Positions 1,815-15,339 of a stretch of 20,280 nucleotides of DNA are shown here, piece after piece (position 1 is the first letter of the stretch; each line of letters starts with the position of its first letter). Source of the DNA: Ochromonadaceae sp. CCMP2298 (taxonomy: Eukaryota > Sar > Synurophyceae > Ochromonadales > Ochromonadaceae); NCBI GenBank assembly GCA_026770595.1, contig MU633895.1:1-20280 (forward strand). The letters run 5' to 3'. The position numbers and the translations under genes were made by a program. The notes beneath the pieces are model-generated. The model saw only the letters and a program-made list of their open reading frames with translations, made no database searches and was not told the origin of the DNA.

Positions 1815-3681
1815 ATGAGCGTGAAGGATTTCGCTCGTGTGCTGAAGGGCGCCTCTCTGGTGATGGACCAGATCGTGCTGCGGAATAGACCCGAAGTTGC
1901 CTGGCGGTTCGAGAGGGCTAAGTACCACCTTGGGGAGTTGCTAAAAGTCATAGCAGAGGTGAGTCACAACCAAGTGCAGAACGGTCCCGCCGCAGCCGAG
2001 AAGGATTTCTCGGCCGCAGCGGACAGGGCGAAGCAAACCTTTGACGCGGTTGCCGCTGAGGTGAATAGCACAATGGCAAAGGTGCACAGCCAGACGGCGT
2101 CTGTAATACAGCCGCAGCAGAAGCAGGAGAGCGATCTGATCGGTTTCAGTCGAATCAAGGACGAGGATGTGCAGGCGCTCCGGGAGGCGTCCAAGAGGAA
2201 TGTGAACAACCAGGAGGCGAAGAAGATGATGCAGGAGAGGGCCGTTCCCGCCACCCAGCTGGGCCGCTTTATGGGCTTCGGCAGCCTGGCTGTGCGCATG
2301 GCGATGGGCGAGGCGATAGACCGCGCCTCGCACGCCATGTCCGGAGACACAGGTCCGCGCTACATCTCCGAGCAGAACGCAGAGCGTCTCGCGGAGTCAC
2401 TCTGTCGCATGCGTGGGGCGGCTCTAAAGCTGGGGCAGATGCTGAGCCTGCAGGACGAGAGCTCGCTGCCGCCCTCACTGGCCAAGGCCCTGGCGAGGGT
2501 AAAGCAGGCGGCTGACTATATGCCCCGACGGCAGCTTGAGGCGCAGCTGGTCACGCAGCTGGGCGCAGACTGGCAGTCCAAGGTCGCAGAGTTTGACTTT
2601 GTGCCTATAGCTGCCGCGTCTATAGGGCAGGTGCACCGGGCGAGGCTGCACGACGGCACGGAGGTGGCGATGAAGGTGCAGTACCCGGGAGTGGCGGAGT
2701 CCATCGACAGCGACCTGTCCAACCTCAAGACCCTGGTGCAGATGACCAACCTGCTGCCCCCGGGACTCTTTGTGGACAAAATAATCGAAGTGGCTAGCGT
2801 TGAGCTCAAGGCAGAATGTAGGTTTCCGCTAGCCCCTGACCTGTGTCGTATTCAGCGTATTCTGCGTATTCTGCCTGTCGTGCACACTCTCACCTCTTAC
2901 CCCACCCTTCTTACACCCTTCTAATACCCTTCTTGCAGGCGACTACACTAAAGAAGCCACGGCGCAGATCGAGTACCGGGAGCTCATCCTCGCCGACAAG
3001 ATTTTGCGCAAGCACACATACGTGCCGCAGGTGTACAGCGAGCTCTCCTCATCTAGGGTGCTCACTACCGAGCTCGTGCCCGGCGAGCCCGTCGACTTGG
3101 CAGTCAAGTTCCCGCAAGCTGTGCGCAACGCCATCGCGCGCACCGTGCTGATCGCCACCATCCGGGAGCTCTTCGAGTGGCGCTTCATCCAGTCAGACCC
3201 CAATTTCGCCAACTTCTTGTACGACGACCCGTCCCGCACGATAAACATGATCGACTTCGGGGCCGCGCGACGCTACTCCAAGGACTTCGTCGACGGCTAC
3301 ATGAAGCTCGTCTGGGCCGCGGCAAACAAAGATAGAGAGATGATTAAAGACGTTTCCAAGGACCTGGGTTTTATTACGGGCGATGAGACGCAGGAGTTCA
3401 TTGACGCGCACATAGAAGCCGGCTTGGTTGTGGGCGAACCCTTCCTCAAGCACGAGCCGTTCGACTTCGGCAACTCCCGCCTCACAGCGCGTATCGGCCA
3501 GTACGGCGGGACCTTCATGAAGTACCGCCTCACGCCGCCCCCCTCCGAGGCCTACTCGCTGCACAGAAAGCTGGCGGGTGCCTTCTTGCTGTCCATCAAA
3601 CTCAAGGCGGTCATTCCCTGCAGAGACATACTGGAGACGACCTTCAACGAGTACAAGTTCGGACCCGTTCCTGAGAAATAG
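1815..3681 (+). CDS. COQ8: COQ8/ABC1 (ADCK3/4-type) atypical kinase
   Basis: Two exons, 1815-2817 and 2939-3681, give 581 residues. The 121-base intron (gtaggt...ttgcag, branch-like CTAAT at 2921) splits the Cys codon of an ECDY segment that matches animal COQ8A. UbiB/ABC1 family members are mitochondrial inner-membrane ATPase/kinase-like proteins supporting coenzyme Q biosynthesis. Family hallmarks are present: the KxGQ motif (K205-Q208) in ALKLGQMLS, the Ala-rich AAAS loop (266-269) replacing the usual Gly-rich loop, VAMK with Lys287, the catalytic-type QSDPNFANF (D421, N426) and the IDFGA metal site (D440). The C-terminal PPPSEAYSLHRKLAGAFLL and KAVIPCRD also match COQ8A. Residues 50-130 are helical and poorly conserved. 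The N terminus is basic but is not a textbook presequence. Assignment to COQ8 rather than plastid ABC1K rests on the KxGQ-containing N-terminal extension and overall similarity. Confidence 0.92.
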
Positions 3682-9408: not shown

Positions 9409-12400
9409 CTATTTTTGGCGCTGTTCTGCTGGTTCCGCAGTAGCCAGCGTCAGCTCCTTCTGACGCGCAGCCTCCAGTGCGGTGAGTATGAGGCCGATGG
9501 CGCGGGTGGCGCGGGGCAGTGCGTGGGCCTGGGAGGGGAAGGAGAAGCGCAGGAAATCGAAGGAGAGGGCAGCACGATCTCCGCGTTCGCCCCTGTCGCC
9601 TGCGCCCCCCCGGCTGTGCCCCTGCCCCTCCTCCTGCCCCATTCCCCCCTGGCCGTCGCCCTCCGCCACCTCCAGCGGGTATCGCTGGCTAAAGTGAGTC
9701 AGCACCACGTGCCTGGCCCTCATCTGCGCCGCCACCCTGCGCGCCTCCGAGGTAGTGGAGTGCCTCTTCTTGAGCGCGTCGGCCTGCCTGGCGTCCGTGA
9801 AGGTGGCCTCGTGGATCAGCAGGTCGCAGTCCAGGCCGGCCCGTGCGAGGCTCTGGCTCGGCCTGCAGTCCCCGCTGTAGACCACCTTGCACGCGGCGAA
9901 GTCCAGCACGAGGCCGTAGGAGCTGTGGCAGTGCAGGACGGGGACGCTGCGCAGGCGCGTGAGCAGGCCGCCCGTCGCAGCGGAGATGTGGGCCGTCATG
10001 CCGGCGTACAGCGTGTGCACGATGGGCGTGAAGGTGGCCAGACCGTCGAGCCCCGCCACGCAGGCTGCGAACTCCGCATACCTGAGCACCGCCTCTGAGG
10101 CTATGATCATCACCTTGTCTGCCTCATACCCGCCAACGAACATGCCAGGGCCCTTCGCTACGGAGGGTACCTGGCCAAGGGAGGCTGCGCGGGCAGAGCG
10201 TCTCATGCGTGCGCGCTCGATCTGCTCCAGCAGCATCGGCAGACCAGTCATGTGGTCCGCGTGGTGGTGCGAGATCCACACCACCTTCACGCCCAGCAGC
10301 AGCGCGTCGTACCTGCGCAGGTCGCCCCCCACGCTCTGCAGCATCTGCGCAGCAGTGCACTCGGCCACGTCCAGCAGCACGATCTGCGGGGCCTCAGAAG
10401 GCTCGCCTGCAACGCTCGTACTCACCCCCGCTCCCGCACCTGCACCCGCCCCTGCACCCGCCCCCGCACCTGTACCTCCCACGTCGATGGAGAGAGATGG
10501 TCGCTTTCTGCCGAAGCGGTTAGTGGGCGGGTCCTGCAGAGAGAAGCCGCCCCCGACCCCCAGCGGTGCAAGCGCAGGCTCAGGTGCAGCCGGGGGCTGG
10601 AGTGCGGCGGGGTTCGTGCTGCTAGCACCCGCCCCTGCACCCTTCCCGTGCATGTGCAGGGCCAGCATGATGCAGCTGCCGTTGCGGTACTTGGACGGTG
10701 TGGCGGAGCCTGTGCCCAGGAAGGTCGCCGTCAGCAGGTCCAGGGGGTGGGGCGGGGGCACGGCAAGAGCGTCGGCCGTCTGCGTCTGCGCGAGAGAGAG
10801 GGAGAGGGAGAGTTTTTCCGGTCCCAACCCCCGCTCCTGCTCCCGCTGTACCTGCTGCTGGTCGGGCTCCTGCTGCTGCTGGTCTTGCTGCCGCTGTTGG
10901 AGCTGATGTGGGTCCTCAGTGGAGTCGGCGTCCGTGACCGAGCTGAACGTGTTCCCGCCCGTGGACGAGAATGCAGAGGCAGCAGAGGCAGCAGAGGCGC
11001 CAGAGGCAGCAGTGCCCGGAGCGGAGAGGGAGCCGGGGGCGGGAGGGGACGATAGGTGCACTTGCAGGTGCTGAGGGGGCTGGGGGCACGTGGGTGGCCT
11101 GGGGGGCTGGGGAGGCTGGGGAGGCTGGGGCTGGGTCGGGTGCATCGGCTCAGTGGTCTGTGCTGAGGGTTCCTCCCCCGTCTCCGCCCCCGCCCCCTCT
11201 GCGCAGTCGGTACGAGAGGCGACGTCGAAGGTGAATGCGCGTGATGAGTCGTCCAGCCGCATGGTCTTCAGGGAGGTGACGGCCACTGGAGATCCCGCAG
11301 TGTCCCCAGTGTCCCCAATATCCCCCTCCGCCATATACCCCACTCCGGTGTAGATGGAAAGCCTGTCGCGCGCAGACAGCGGGGAGCGGGCAGAGCGCGG
11401 GGTGGTCTCCACAGAGGCAGAGTCGCGATAGGCACTGGGGTCGCCGTACTCTCCGCTGCGCCTGCCCAGCTTCCTCTTCTGCAGCTGGGCGCGAATCTGC
11501 AAAGCGGCTGAGAAGTTGAGGTTGGGCAGAGAGTCGCCCATACCCACCCCTGTCACTGCTCCTGCTCCTGTCCCTGCTCCTGCCCCTGCTCCTGCCCCTG
11601 CTCCTGCCCCTGCTCCTGCTCCGGTGTCTATACCACTCATACCACTAGCACCACTCATACCACCCGCACCACCCATACCACCAAAACAAGCCATATTACC
11701 CATACCGATACTCATCTGCATCGGGTGCTGATACTGCTGCTGCTGGAACTGCTGTTGCTGGAACTGCTGTTGCTGGTACTGCTGGTACTGCTGCTGGTTC
11801 TGATACTGCTGACGCTGGTACTGCTGATATTGCTGGTGCTGCTGATTCTGCTGCTGTTGGTGCTGTTGTTGGTACTGTTGCTGCTGCGGCAGTTGCTGGT
11901 ACTGCTGGTACTGCTGCTGCTGAAACTGCTGCTGATACTGGTGCTGCAGGTAAGCGGGGGAGCCCTCTTGCTCGTCCGCCGATCGGAAGGATGCCCCAGA
12001 TCGAAATGATGCCCCCCCCTCAGACCGGAAGGTCTCTGCACTGTCTTGGCGCCGAATCCCCGAGGGCAGCGCCAGCAGCGGCACCGGCCCACTCCCCAGG
12101 CGCGCGGGGACCGGGGCTGGGCCCCCGAATACTGCAAACATGGGAGAGCCTTCGCTGTCAGGCGCGCTGGCAGGCTGTGGGGGGGCCAGGAGGGCCGAGA
12201 GGTGGGGCAGGACCGCTGTGTTGTAAACCCGAATCTTAGAAGCTGAGCGCTGCGCTAGGCGCTGTGTCCCCAGGGCTGCGGAGTGCTGGAATACAGGTAC
12301 AGCCTGCTGGAATGTGGGGGCGCCTGCGCGTGTGTGTGCGTCTGTATGTGCGTATGTATGGGAGTGTCCGCTGACGCGGTCGCCCCTCAAGTCTTCTGAG

Positions 12401-14102
12401 TTATCTGAATCTGAACTTTCTGATTCATCTGAATTGTCTGATTTTTCTGAATTTGAGTCGTCGGAGAACGCTGCCGAGGCGACCCTCAGGGGAATTAGGG
12501 GGATCAAGGGGGTCGTAATGCTCAGCAGCGGTGCAGCAGGCTGCAGCCAGGGCGTGTGAGAGGGGCTGCTTGAGCTCTCTCTGTCATCTGAGCTCTCTCT
12601 GCCGATGCTGAGGCTGTCGGGCTGGCTCAGCAGCAGATCGCGCCTCGCCTGCGCCTGTGGGTCTATGTCGGGGAACAGGGGGTGACAGAGGTAGTGCAGG
12701 GTGGAGAGCATGCTTTGGGCGTGTCCGTACTCGCAGTAGCGGTTGCTGAGGGTGCCCTGCGTGTGGAGGATATCGGGGCAGATGTAGAGAAATAAGTTAG
12801 ACAGAGACAGCCAGTTATTATGATAAGCATAAGCATAAGCATAAGTATAAGCATAATAACTACCACCCATGCCACTCACCGATACGAGCAAGCCCCGCAC
12901 TGCGTACTTCCGGCACAGCTGCTGCAGGCTGCGGAACTGATCTGCCGCACCCGCATCCGCATCTGTATCCGCATCCGCACCCACCTCGACCCCATCTGCG
13001 TCCGCACCCGCCGCACTGACACACGTCCCGCTCGCTTGCTGGTCCTGGCCCTTAGTCTGGGCGGTTTGGCTCGCGTTCTCTGAGTTGAGCGGGTGTGGCG
13101 GGTTCACACACGAGGCCACCGCCAAGGGCGTGAAGAGCAGCACGGGCGTGGCTGCTGGCGCCACCGCGGCGGTGTAGGCGAGGCTCTGCTGCAGCAGCTG
13201 CTCTATGGAAGGAAAGGCTGCGAAGTAGTACGGCAGGGGCAGCACTGAGGTCACTGCGCATGCTGTGGCTGTGGCTGAGGCTTTGCTTGCTGAGGGACAG
13301 CCTGGGCCCATGTACACGCTGGCCCCGATGGCTATGACACGCGTGCTCGCCTAGAGGGTGTGTGGAGTGGGCTTGTGTGAGGCGGTGGAAAATACGGACA
13401 GGGATGCAGTGGTTTATGTGGTATGTGCGTGTCCGGAGTGTGTTGTGGGGGGGTGCAGTGAGCTTACCTCGTTAGCATGCACGGGGAAGATGCGCACGTG
13501 CATGTGCGGCAGCTGCACCACCAGCTCCTCCTCGGTGGGCCGATCCACCTCCACGATGGTGAGGGCTGGGTACTTGCGGTTGATGAAGGGCGTCATCAGG
13601 TCCAGGTAGCTCCGCACTCCAGTGGGGCCGATGACGGTAAGGCCACCCACACCCTGAGAAGGCAGGGGTAGAAAGAGAAGAGGTAGAGGCAGAGGAGAGC
13701 ACAGGCGGAGGAGGTTAGAGGAGGGTAGAGGAGAGCAGAGGAGGCAGGGGGGGGAAGTGCAAATTGAGGTCCTGGCAAGTGGGCAGTCCATCGCAGGCTT
13801 ACCAGGTCCGAGAGCGAGAGGAAAATGCCCGGAAAGCCTGAGATGTTGTGCGGCGCTAAAGAGGTGATAACGATGCAGGAGAGTCCGGAGAGCTTGATCC
13901 GGTTCTCGTTGCAGAAGCGCTGCGCCCCGTCCCCAACGTTGATCATGCACCGACTTATCACGTGCCGCTCGTTCGTGCGCTGGTTGATCACGCGCTCGGC
14001 AGAGACCAGCGTGGACACGCCGGAGGCATTGTAGCCACAGGTGAGGCAGGTAATCACGCACTCCATTGCAGCTCCGTCACTGAGCAGCCCGCATGCAGTC
14101 AA
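9409..14102 (-). CDS. ELAC2: Long-form tRNase Z (ELAC2), unusually large
   Basis: Three minus-strand exons (14102-13803, 13653-13468, 13350-9409) with phase-0 introns of 149 and 117 bases encode about 1475 residues; long-form tRNase Z is usually 700-950. The enzyme cuts the 3' trailer from pre-tRNA in nucleus and mitochondria. Residues 1-162 form the start of the degenerate N-terminal beta-lactamase half (INVGDGAQRF, PHNISGFPGIFLSLSDL). The catalytic half begins near 1037 with FLGTGSATPSKYRN (PxKxRN motif). It contains HHHADH (H1190, H1192, D1194, H1195), HCHSSYG (H1302), YSGD (D1323), LIHEATF (H1342), KKRHSTTSEA, and LTHFSQRYP (H1381), so all metal ligands are present. Between the halves lie Ser/Asp-rich, Gln-rich (about 626-708) and Gly-Ala (about 736-766, 1120-1140) segments. 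LDVAECT replaces the usual LDCGEGT. Exon 3 is open throughout, but an undetected intron within the low-complexity part cannot be excluded. Confidence 0.9.
10432..10476 (-). repeat. Coding Gly-Ala hexamer repeat (distal)
   Basis: Tandem GCACCTG/CACCCGCCC-like hexamers on the plus strand read as alternating Gly-Ala on the minus strand of the tRNase Z exon, near residues 1120-1140. They lie between the two conserved motifs PxKxRN and HxHxDH, inside the catalytic half. Confidence 0.8.
11550..11624 (-). repeat. Coding Gly-Ala hexamer repeat (proximal)
   Basis: About twelve copies of a CTGCTC/CTGCCC hexamer on the plus strand encode alternating Gly-Ala in the tRNase Z linker (near residues 736-766). 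The frame is kept throughout, as expected for a hexamer array in a coding exon. Confidence 0.85.
11719..11957 (-). repeat. Coding Gln-rich (CAG/CAA, Tyr-interspersed) tract
   Basis: On the minus strand this run encodes roughly 80 residues, mostly Gln with regularly placed Tyr, Phe and His (QQQYQQYQQ-type units). It is made of interrupted CAG, CAA and TAC/TAT codons and lies in the linker between the two halves of tRNase Z. Its mixed codons suggest selection on protein composition as well as slippage. Confidence 0.88.
12823..12852 (-). repeat. Coding ATAAGC hexamer microsatellite
   Basis: Five near-perfect ATAAGC units on the plus strand read as alternating Ala-Tyr on the minus strand in the N-terminal linker of tRNase Z. 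One unit has a single change (ATAAGT). Confidence 0.85.
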
Positions 14103-14414: not shown

Positions 14415-14871
14415 ATGGAGCTCCTGCGTGTGGCAATCCTGCTCGCGATCGCGGTCGCAACCCTGGCGATCGAGGTAAGATTGTATTGTCTATGCCTGCA
14501 GGCTCCTATTGAGCTGACGAGTTTCATCCTGCTCCAAATATGCAGGGTGAGATCATCTCGTGCACCGGGTGAAAGTTAAACAAGCTGCCTGAGGTCAGAA
14601 CCTTCTTGAAAGAAGCTGGCCATGCAGACAGCTACGATGGACTCACAATCACTTGGACGTCCGGGAAGAGCCCCACTCTCCACATCAAGGGAGCCAACGG
14701 GGAGACTTCGGAGACGATCGACCTGTCTGAGGTAAGATGCATTGCTCCTCTTTGCAGGTCTCCATTTGCTAACGAGTGCCCCGCACAATCTCAACTGCGC
14801 AGCATACCACCGATAGACTCCACGAGTTGATGGCAGCCAAGGGCTTCAAGCGCAGGAAGGTGGAGCTCTAG
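14415..14871 (+). CDS. SELENOM: Selenoprotein M (ER thioredoxin-like, UGA = Sec)
   Basis: Three exons (14415-14474, 14546-14731, 14803-14871), with two phase-0 introns of 71 bases each, encode 104 residues if the in-frame TGA at 14570-14572 is read as selenocysteine. Residues 1-20 form a signal peptide (MELLRVAILLAIAVATLAIE). The active site CTGU follows at Cys26-Sec29 and continues KLNKLPEVRTFL, matching the CxxU and QLNRLKEVKAF of animal selenoprotein M. The end, HTTDRLHELMAAKGFKRRK, matches the family's TREEINALVQELGFYRK. The protein ends KVEL, an ER-retrieval-like tail. Selenoprotein M is a thioredoxin-fold oxidoreductase of the ER lumen related to Sep15. Similarity on both sides of the UGA and across all splice junctions argues against a pseudogene. 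A SECIS-like hairpin lies downstream. Confidence 0.9.
14570..14572 (+). other. In-frame UGA selenocysteine codon
   Basis: TGA is the ninth codon of the second exon, preceded by Cys-Thr-Gly and followed by Lys-Leu-Asn-Lys-Leu. The position equals the Sec of the CxxU redox motif in selenoprotein M. The frame stays open and family-like for 75 further codons to a TAG stop. Confidence 0.88.
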
Positions 14872-15339
14872 ACTCTGAGTCTATGAATCAGTCTATTCTA
14901 GAGGCTTCAGTCCAGAGTCCAGAAAGAAGTTGTGGTATTCGTTGTGTATTATCCTTCGCACGCCCTCTCCACCAACTGCTGGTCTGAATGACACCTGAGG
15001 CGGCACTGATCACGGAGAGCTTGGCATAGCCTGCTCCTTGTTGGTACTGGTGCCATCCCTGGTCGATGTGACAGTGGTAGCGTGGGGAGGGTCGCGCGGG
15101 GCAGAATGCGTTCCCTGCTTTACGAAACGGCTAAATCAAATACATCATACAGTCGATGCTTCTTTTTTAGTTATTTAGCGTTGCCGGGTAATGCGCGGTG
15201 TTGGCGAGGGCGCGGCTTTCTCGGCGCCGGGCTCGGGGGATAGCAGGGTAGGGAGTGAAGGGTACGCTAGCTAAGCACACAGTGCACGATGCTTTGTATG
15301 TTGTGCGTTGTGGGTGATACATGGTGCTGTGCCATGCGC
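14872..15339. other. Convergent SELENOM / POLD3 3' region
   Basis: This 468-base gap lies between two genes reading towards each other. It holds the SELENOM 3' UTR with a candidate SECIS hairpin (14957-15098) and the POLD3 3' UTR. The remaining part, about 15100-15339, is GC-rich and shows no convincing gene. Confidence 0.6.
14957..15098 (+). promoter_or_regulatory. Candidate SECIS element of SELENOM
   Basis: A long imperfect hairpin starts 86 bases after the SELENOM stop. Its lower stem pairs 14957-14962 with 15093-15098, 14963-14970 with 15084-15091 (8 bp) and 14971-14978 with 15072-15078 (7 bp, one bulged A). After an internal loop comes ATGA (14988-14991) facing GAT (15065-15067), the SECIS-type U.U, G.A, A.G core. 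Above it, 14993-15008 pairs with 15048-15063 at 13 of 16 positions. The 39-base apical region has no AA. That is unusual; some animal selenoprotein M SECIS elements use CC there, and CC is present. Confidence 0.5.

Follow-up and report, generated by a model that had tools for sequence, protein, structure and literature searches.

We analysed a 20,280-nt stretch of DNA from Ochromonadaceae sp. CCMP2298 (positions 1 to 20,280 of contig MU633895.1, which is the whole contig, hereafter the window) and conclude with high confidence that it carries a genuine selenoprotein M (SelM) gene of a chrysophyte alga, in which an in-frame UGA would be decoded as selenocysteine (Sec). The gene is intact apart from this codon, a second SelM gene of the same genome keeps the UGA at the same position, and a SECIS-like element lies downstream of the coding sequence. 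CCMP2298 is an Arctic chrysophyte with a published assembly of 61.1 Mb in 12,764 scaffolds (PMC9756366).

Gene structure and family of the window SelM

The three exons of SelM (Table 1) join to 315 bases, which correspond to 104 codons and a terminal TAG, and the TGA at codon 29 is the sole in-frame stop upstream of this TAG. Both introns have GTAAGA...CAG splice ends. The spliced translation reads MELLRVAILLAIAVATLAIEGEIISCTG-U-KLNKLPEV...KVEL, with a redox motif of C-T-G-U, i.e., C-x-x-U and not C-x-U. A profile search of this translation, with Cys put at codon 29, matched the Sep15_SelM family (PF08806) at 63.5 bits over residues 22–97, spanning both sides of the TGA, compared with a curated Pfam cut-off of 26 bits. 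The solved SelM 2a2p was matched at 35.2 bits (residues 20–101), and the solved Sep15 2a4h at a lower 26.8 bits (residues 23–92). A first-pass annotation had read the locus as a three-exon gene running through the TGA within a CTGU motif, with similarity to selenoprotein M on either side; the intact frame, the splice sites and the profile scores bear this out. The span that it gave, 14415–15098, holds in part: coding ends at 14871, and the remainder is taken as 3′ UTR harboring the SECIS-like element, a candidate that is new here and was absent from that annotation.

Table 1. Coordinates of SelM, its downstream SECIS-like element and the second SelM gene (positions refer to the window unless a locus is named).
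Feature	Position	Strand	Remarks
SelM exon 1	14415–14474	+	begins with start codon; N-terminus hydrophobic, by eye a likely signal peptide
Intron 1	14475–14545	+	GTAAGA...ATGCAG
SelM exon 2	14546–14731	+	CTGU redox motif and most of Sep15_SelM domain
In-frame TGA	14570–14572	+	codon 29, predicted to be read as selenocysteine
Intron 2	14732–14802	+	GTAAGA...GCGCAG
SelM exon 3	14803–14871	+	end KVEL, then stop TAG 14869–14871
SECIS-like element	14969–15087	+	core between two stems, folding
Lower helix arms	within 14969–14984 and 15070–15087	+	
5′ core AATGAC	14987–14992	+	
Upper arm	14993–15063	+	71 nt
3′ core CGATGT	15064–15069	+	
SelM-b exons	L014 3885–4013, 4086–4202, 4418–4564		130 residues, CPGU; second SelM gene, on another contig

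Like known SelM proteins (SELENOM; PF08806, 2a2p), the algal protein has a Sep15/SelM domain directly preceded by a hydrophobic N-terminus, two residues between Cys and Sec, and a UGA at the Sec position. The motif itself differs, since CTGU in SelM and CPGU in the second gene, SelM-b, correspond to CGGC in the alignment of 2a2p, where the solved protein has Cys. In animal SelM the motif is CGGU and the C-terminus is longer than that of the algal protein. Sep15 (SELENOF, 2a4h) shares the Pfam domain but has only one residue between the redox positions in 2a4h (CTC); moreover, Sep15 has a Cys-rich N-terminal domain, for which there is no room in the algal SelM. Two possible signs of ER targeting are visible by eye, the hydrophobic N-terminus and the C-terminal KVEL, and most of the listed relatives are without the -EL end. 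The product would enter the secretory pathway, probably the ER, and is likely to be a small thioredoxin-fold C-x-x-U oxidoreductase, a redox function being known for the family.

In the public record, the gene is represented by ‘hypothetical protein B484DRAFT_323572, partial [Ochromonadaceae sp. CCMP2298]’ at NCBI. This protein has just 75 residues, the first of which directly follows the TGA, and the part upstream is missing, in agreement with the mis-annotation that had been predicted from the letters alone. The case documents a definite mis-annotation in a publicly available genome.

Six further ORF ends in the window (96, 3681, 6990, 8904, 9409, and 15340) all use TAG as stop codon, which is also the stop of both SelM genes and of a glutathione peroxidase gene described below (GPx2). 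The minus-strand ORF at 9409–13317 encodes 1302 residues with a beta-lactamase-fold domain near the C-terminus, preceded on its N-terminal side by low-complexity stretches of great length, Gln and Gly-Ala tracts among them.

Conservation of the UGA and the selenocysteine machinery

SelM-b carries TGA at the same codon as SelM, and 80 codons of the two genes could be aligned from GEI onwards. Over the 71 codons downstream of the TGA, dN is 0.39 and dS is 1.27. Twelve bases from the Sec codon on (TGAAAGTTAAAC, window 14570–14581) are identical in the two genes, while the rest differs widely; a local constraint at the RNA level is a possible explanation. Two selenoprotein M genes have also been described in the diatom Thalassiosira pseudonana (PMC2375036), like CCMP2298 a photosynthetic stramenopile although from another algal class; the likeness is one of gene count.

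Among 35 relatives retrieved by the profile search, the Sec column holds W in eight, C in six and S in one misaligned protein, and the other 20 start beyond the column; seven of these 20 begin one or two residues after it. The W residues probably stem from TGA translated under genetic code 4. Cys is found in relative P0012, which is named Ochromonas danica. Because SelM-b keeps the TGA and 14 of the 35 relatives show either Cys (six) or W, probably TGA (eight), the codon is more than a chance event. A tree of 20 rows, comprising both SelM genes and 18 of the 35 relatives with the other 17 left out, requires, going by its starred branches, a minimum of two changes in the Cys label (five of 17 inner branches are starred and nine are weak). 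None of 31 stretches that fitted the pattern in a scan of IMG/VR encodes a SelM relative according to tblastn.

The first-pass annotation had further implied a Sec machinery in this organism. We searched 11,247,203 bases on 724 contigs, about 18% of the published 61.1 Mb, and found support for this claim in a tRNA-Sec-like gene, in SepSecS and in three further genes with a TGA at the Sec position (SelM-b, GPx1, and GPx2). The tRNA-Sec match (L005 1501–1587, contig C179) scores 56 bits against a cut-off of 47, has the anticodon UCA in a CUUCAAA loop and a six-pair D stem, and is followed by a T run. Two pairs of its variable arm and three of its nine acceptor pairs are non-standard and its T loop is unusual; owing to the acceptor pairs it lends weaker support than it could. 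This copy may be divergent, or may have decayed with a better copy residing on the contigs outside the searched portion. SepSecS is represented by three open exon pieces that cover profile positions 1–388 of 389. It occurs on two contigs (C231 and C321), where both the scores and the spacing of the exons are the same; two haplotypes or a duplicated assembly piece may be the reason. Both GPx genes have the TGA at the Sec position in VNVASK-U-GLT, and Pfam GSHPx scores a piece of GPx1 at 63.7 bits and GPx2, with Cys at the TGA, at 108.5 bits. In our reading, UGA codon 29 of SelM would be decoded as selenocysteine by tRNA-Sec.

The machinery search suggested earlier was thus successful for tRNA-Sec and SepSecS and without result for EFsec; SelD and PSTK were likewise not found in 11.2 of the 61.1 Mb, absences that decide nothing because just ∼18% of the published assembly length was searched. 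For EFsec, the selB model returned six rows, which fall in five genes and all stay below the cut-off. One of these genes is eIF2-gamma by Pfam, and we take the remaining ones to resemble eEF1A, mitochondrial EF-G, EFL1, and an EF1A/HBS1-like fragment. No match to Rdx (SelW/SelT) was detected in the 11.2 Mb, and none of the six Thioredoxin and five AhpC-TSA rows has an inner stop.

SECIS-like elements in the 3′ UTRs

Folding of the SelM 3′ UTR revealed a SECIS-like core between two stems (Table 1), located ∼115 bases past the stop codon and flanked by an upper arm of −26.5 and a lower arm of −14.8 kcal/mol. It is the single core pair in the UTR stretch 14872–15330 that fits RATGAY...NGATGY, and is missed by a scan in which the upper arm is limited to <70 nt. 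Decoding of the UGA would be directed by this particular element.

Two-stem elements were also predicted after SelM-b and, twice, in the GPx2 UTR, with the common core RATGAY...TGATGY. In 30 regions (260,660 bases on both strands, some overlapping) we counted 34 core pairs, and an upper arm of ≤−10 together with a lower arm of ≤−13 kcal/mol was reached by the four selenoprotein UTR elements only and by none of the 30 other pairs. When 14872–15330 was dinucleotide-shuffled 10,000 times, 305 shuffles had a core pair and five passed both arm thresholds, possibly including some with energies near −180 (2 of 10,000; 1 of 3,000), which are impossible and result from forced pairing; the best believable shuffle reached −38.3 compared with −41.3 for the real element. 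These comparisons are not blind: the core pattern was written after the ATGA...CGATG of the window had been seen, the first letter of its 3′ half was kept free so that the window element would fit, and the arm thresholds were chosen once the values were known.

GPx2 (L024 minus, contig C72) has a single Sec TGA and harbors its two elements in tandem, with cores near 3094 (GPx2-I) and 2974 (GPx2-II). Two potential SECIS elements in one gene have been described for SelP, human Sep15, and Ciona SelW1 (PMC2874816). Of SelM-b, GPx1 and GPx2, GPx1 alone is without an element of the RATGAY...NGATGY form; a long hairpin in its UTR contains ATGAC, but the GATGY side is absent, so that it is not counted among the four.

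Eukaryotic SECIS elements are defined by two stems, an AUGA_GA quartet and, in most cases, two or three apical adenines that are unpaired (PMC11227280). All four elements resemble types I and II: they lie in the 3′ UTR and place the AUGA/GA quartet between two stems. They differ in the common 3′ core GATGY and in an upper arm of 23 to 71 nt, and by eye the apical AA is present in GPx2-II only, being missing in the window element, SelM-b and GPx2-I. The 71 nt of the window element exceed the 22–65 nt between the quartet halves for which Asgard archaea were searched in PMC11227280. AA is found in almost all vertebrate SECIS, with CC taking its place in the SelM of placental mammals and in mammalian SelO (PMC3316567), and a conserved UGUA in Dictyostelium provides a precedent for lineage-specific SECIS features (PMC2375036).

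A strict SECIS pattern matched seven places in the 11.2 Mb, three of which are the elements used for its design, compared with two in a reversed control, and it revealed no further selenoprotein. Rfam SECIS_1 returned no hit at E ≤ 10 in the 11.2 Mb (68 candidates scored), a scan that had no canonical algal SECIS as positive control; with lax filters it found none in the UTRs of SelM, SelM-b, GPx2, and GPx1, and an Rfam scan of the whole window likewise contained no SECIS. On the minus strand of L040, at about 540, a core pair of similar summed stability (−32.8) lies ∼100 bases past an ORF without an inner TGA, presumably encoding an ISCA protein; this element probably arose by chance. Sub-threshold matches to C/D-box snoRNAs were observed over the GPx2-I element (L024 3065–3138 minus, E 9.4) and the GPx1 hairpin (L025 3265–3318 plus, E 0.99). 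The C/D motif of snoRNAs and the SECIS core share a kink-turn, which these overlaps may reflect.

Alternative readings and significance

A pseudogene reading, in which the TGA truly terminates translation and a former Cys- or Sec-containing SelM is decaying, is very improbable. The partial annotated protein and the Cys of some relatives, including the one named Ochromonas danica, would fit such decay; however, apart from the TGA the frame and the splice sites are undamaged, the TGA is kept at the same codon in both paralogues with dN below dS downstream of it (see above), and a SECIS-like element follows the gene. Even less probable is a genome-wide use of TGA for an ordinary amino acid, for instance Trp. 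It could appeal to the W called in eight relatives, a residue that is itself unlikely in a C-x-x-C-type motif, yet the six window ORFs with Pfam domains are read without an inner TGA, the eIF2-gamma ORF ends in TGA, and the TGA of both SelM and both GPx genes sits exactly at the Sec position.

More weight is due to the possibility that the gene encodes a selenoprotein, but that the element at 14969–15087 is not its SECIS, although we regard this too as unlikely. The absent apical AA, the unusually long upper arm and the lack of an Rfam SECIS match speak for it, as do the comparable L040 element after an ORF without in-frame TGA and the resemblance of the core to snoRNA C and D boxes, with the weak snoRNA matches over GPx2-I and the GPx1 hairpin. 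On the other hand, the element has the sole core pair of its UTR stretch, only 5 of 10,000 shuffles pass both arm thresholds, and this core is found again behind SelM-b and, in two copies, behind GPx2. Taking the element as the SECIS of SelM, we tentatively raise the broader and rather less secure idea that chrysophytes use a SECIS variant of their own, with an ATGA/GA core extended on its 3′ side to GATGY, a dispensable apical AA and an upper arm of 23–71 nt; standard models would miss it, and the chrysophyte selenoproteome would consequently be largely unannotated. This variant is unproven, but it is the interesting part of the finding and worth pursuing.

SelM is among the most widespread selenoproteins of algae, and the gene described here is therefore one more SelM in a family that is well known, from a class that has received little study. 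The main text of a survey of algal selenoproteomes (PMC7539508) does not name chrysophytes, Ochromonas or CCMP2298, and in the portions of the literature covered by our search, including PMC8234872 and PMC6254913, we found no report of a chrysophyte selenoprotein; the latter counts Aureococcus as a chrysophyte. The window gene points to the use of selenocysteine in a chrysophyte, and the four elements give an initial, testable view of a type of SECIS that is missed by a standard RNA model and that could hide more selenoproteins in these algae.
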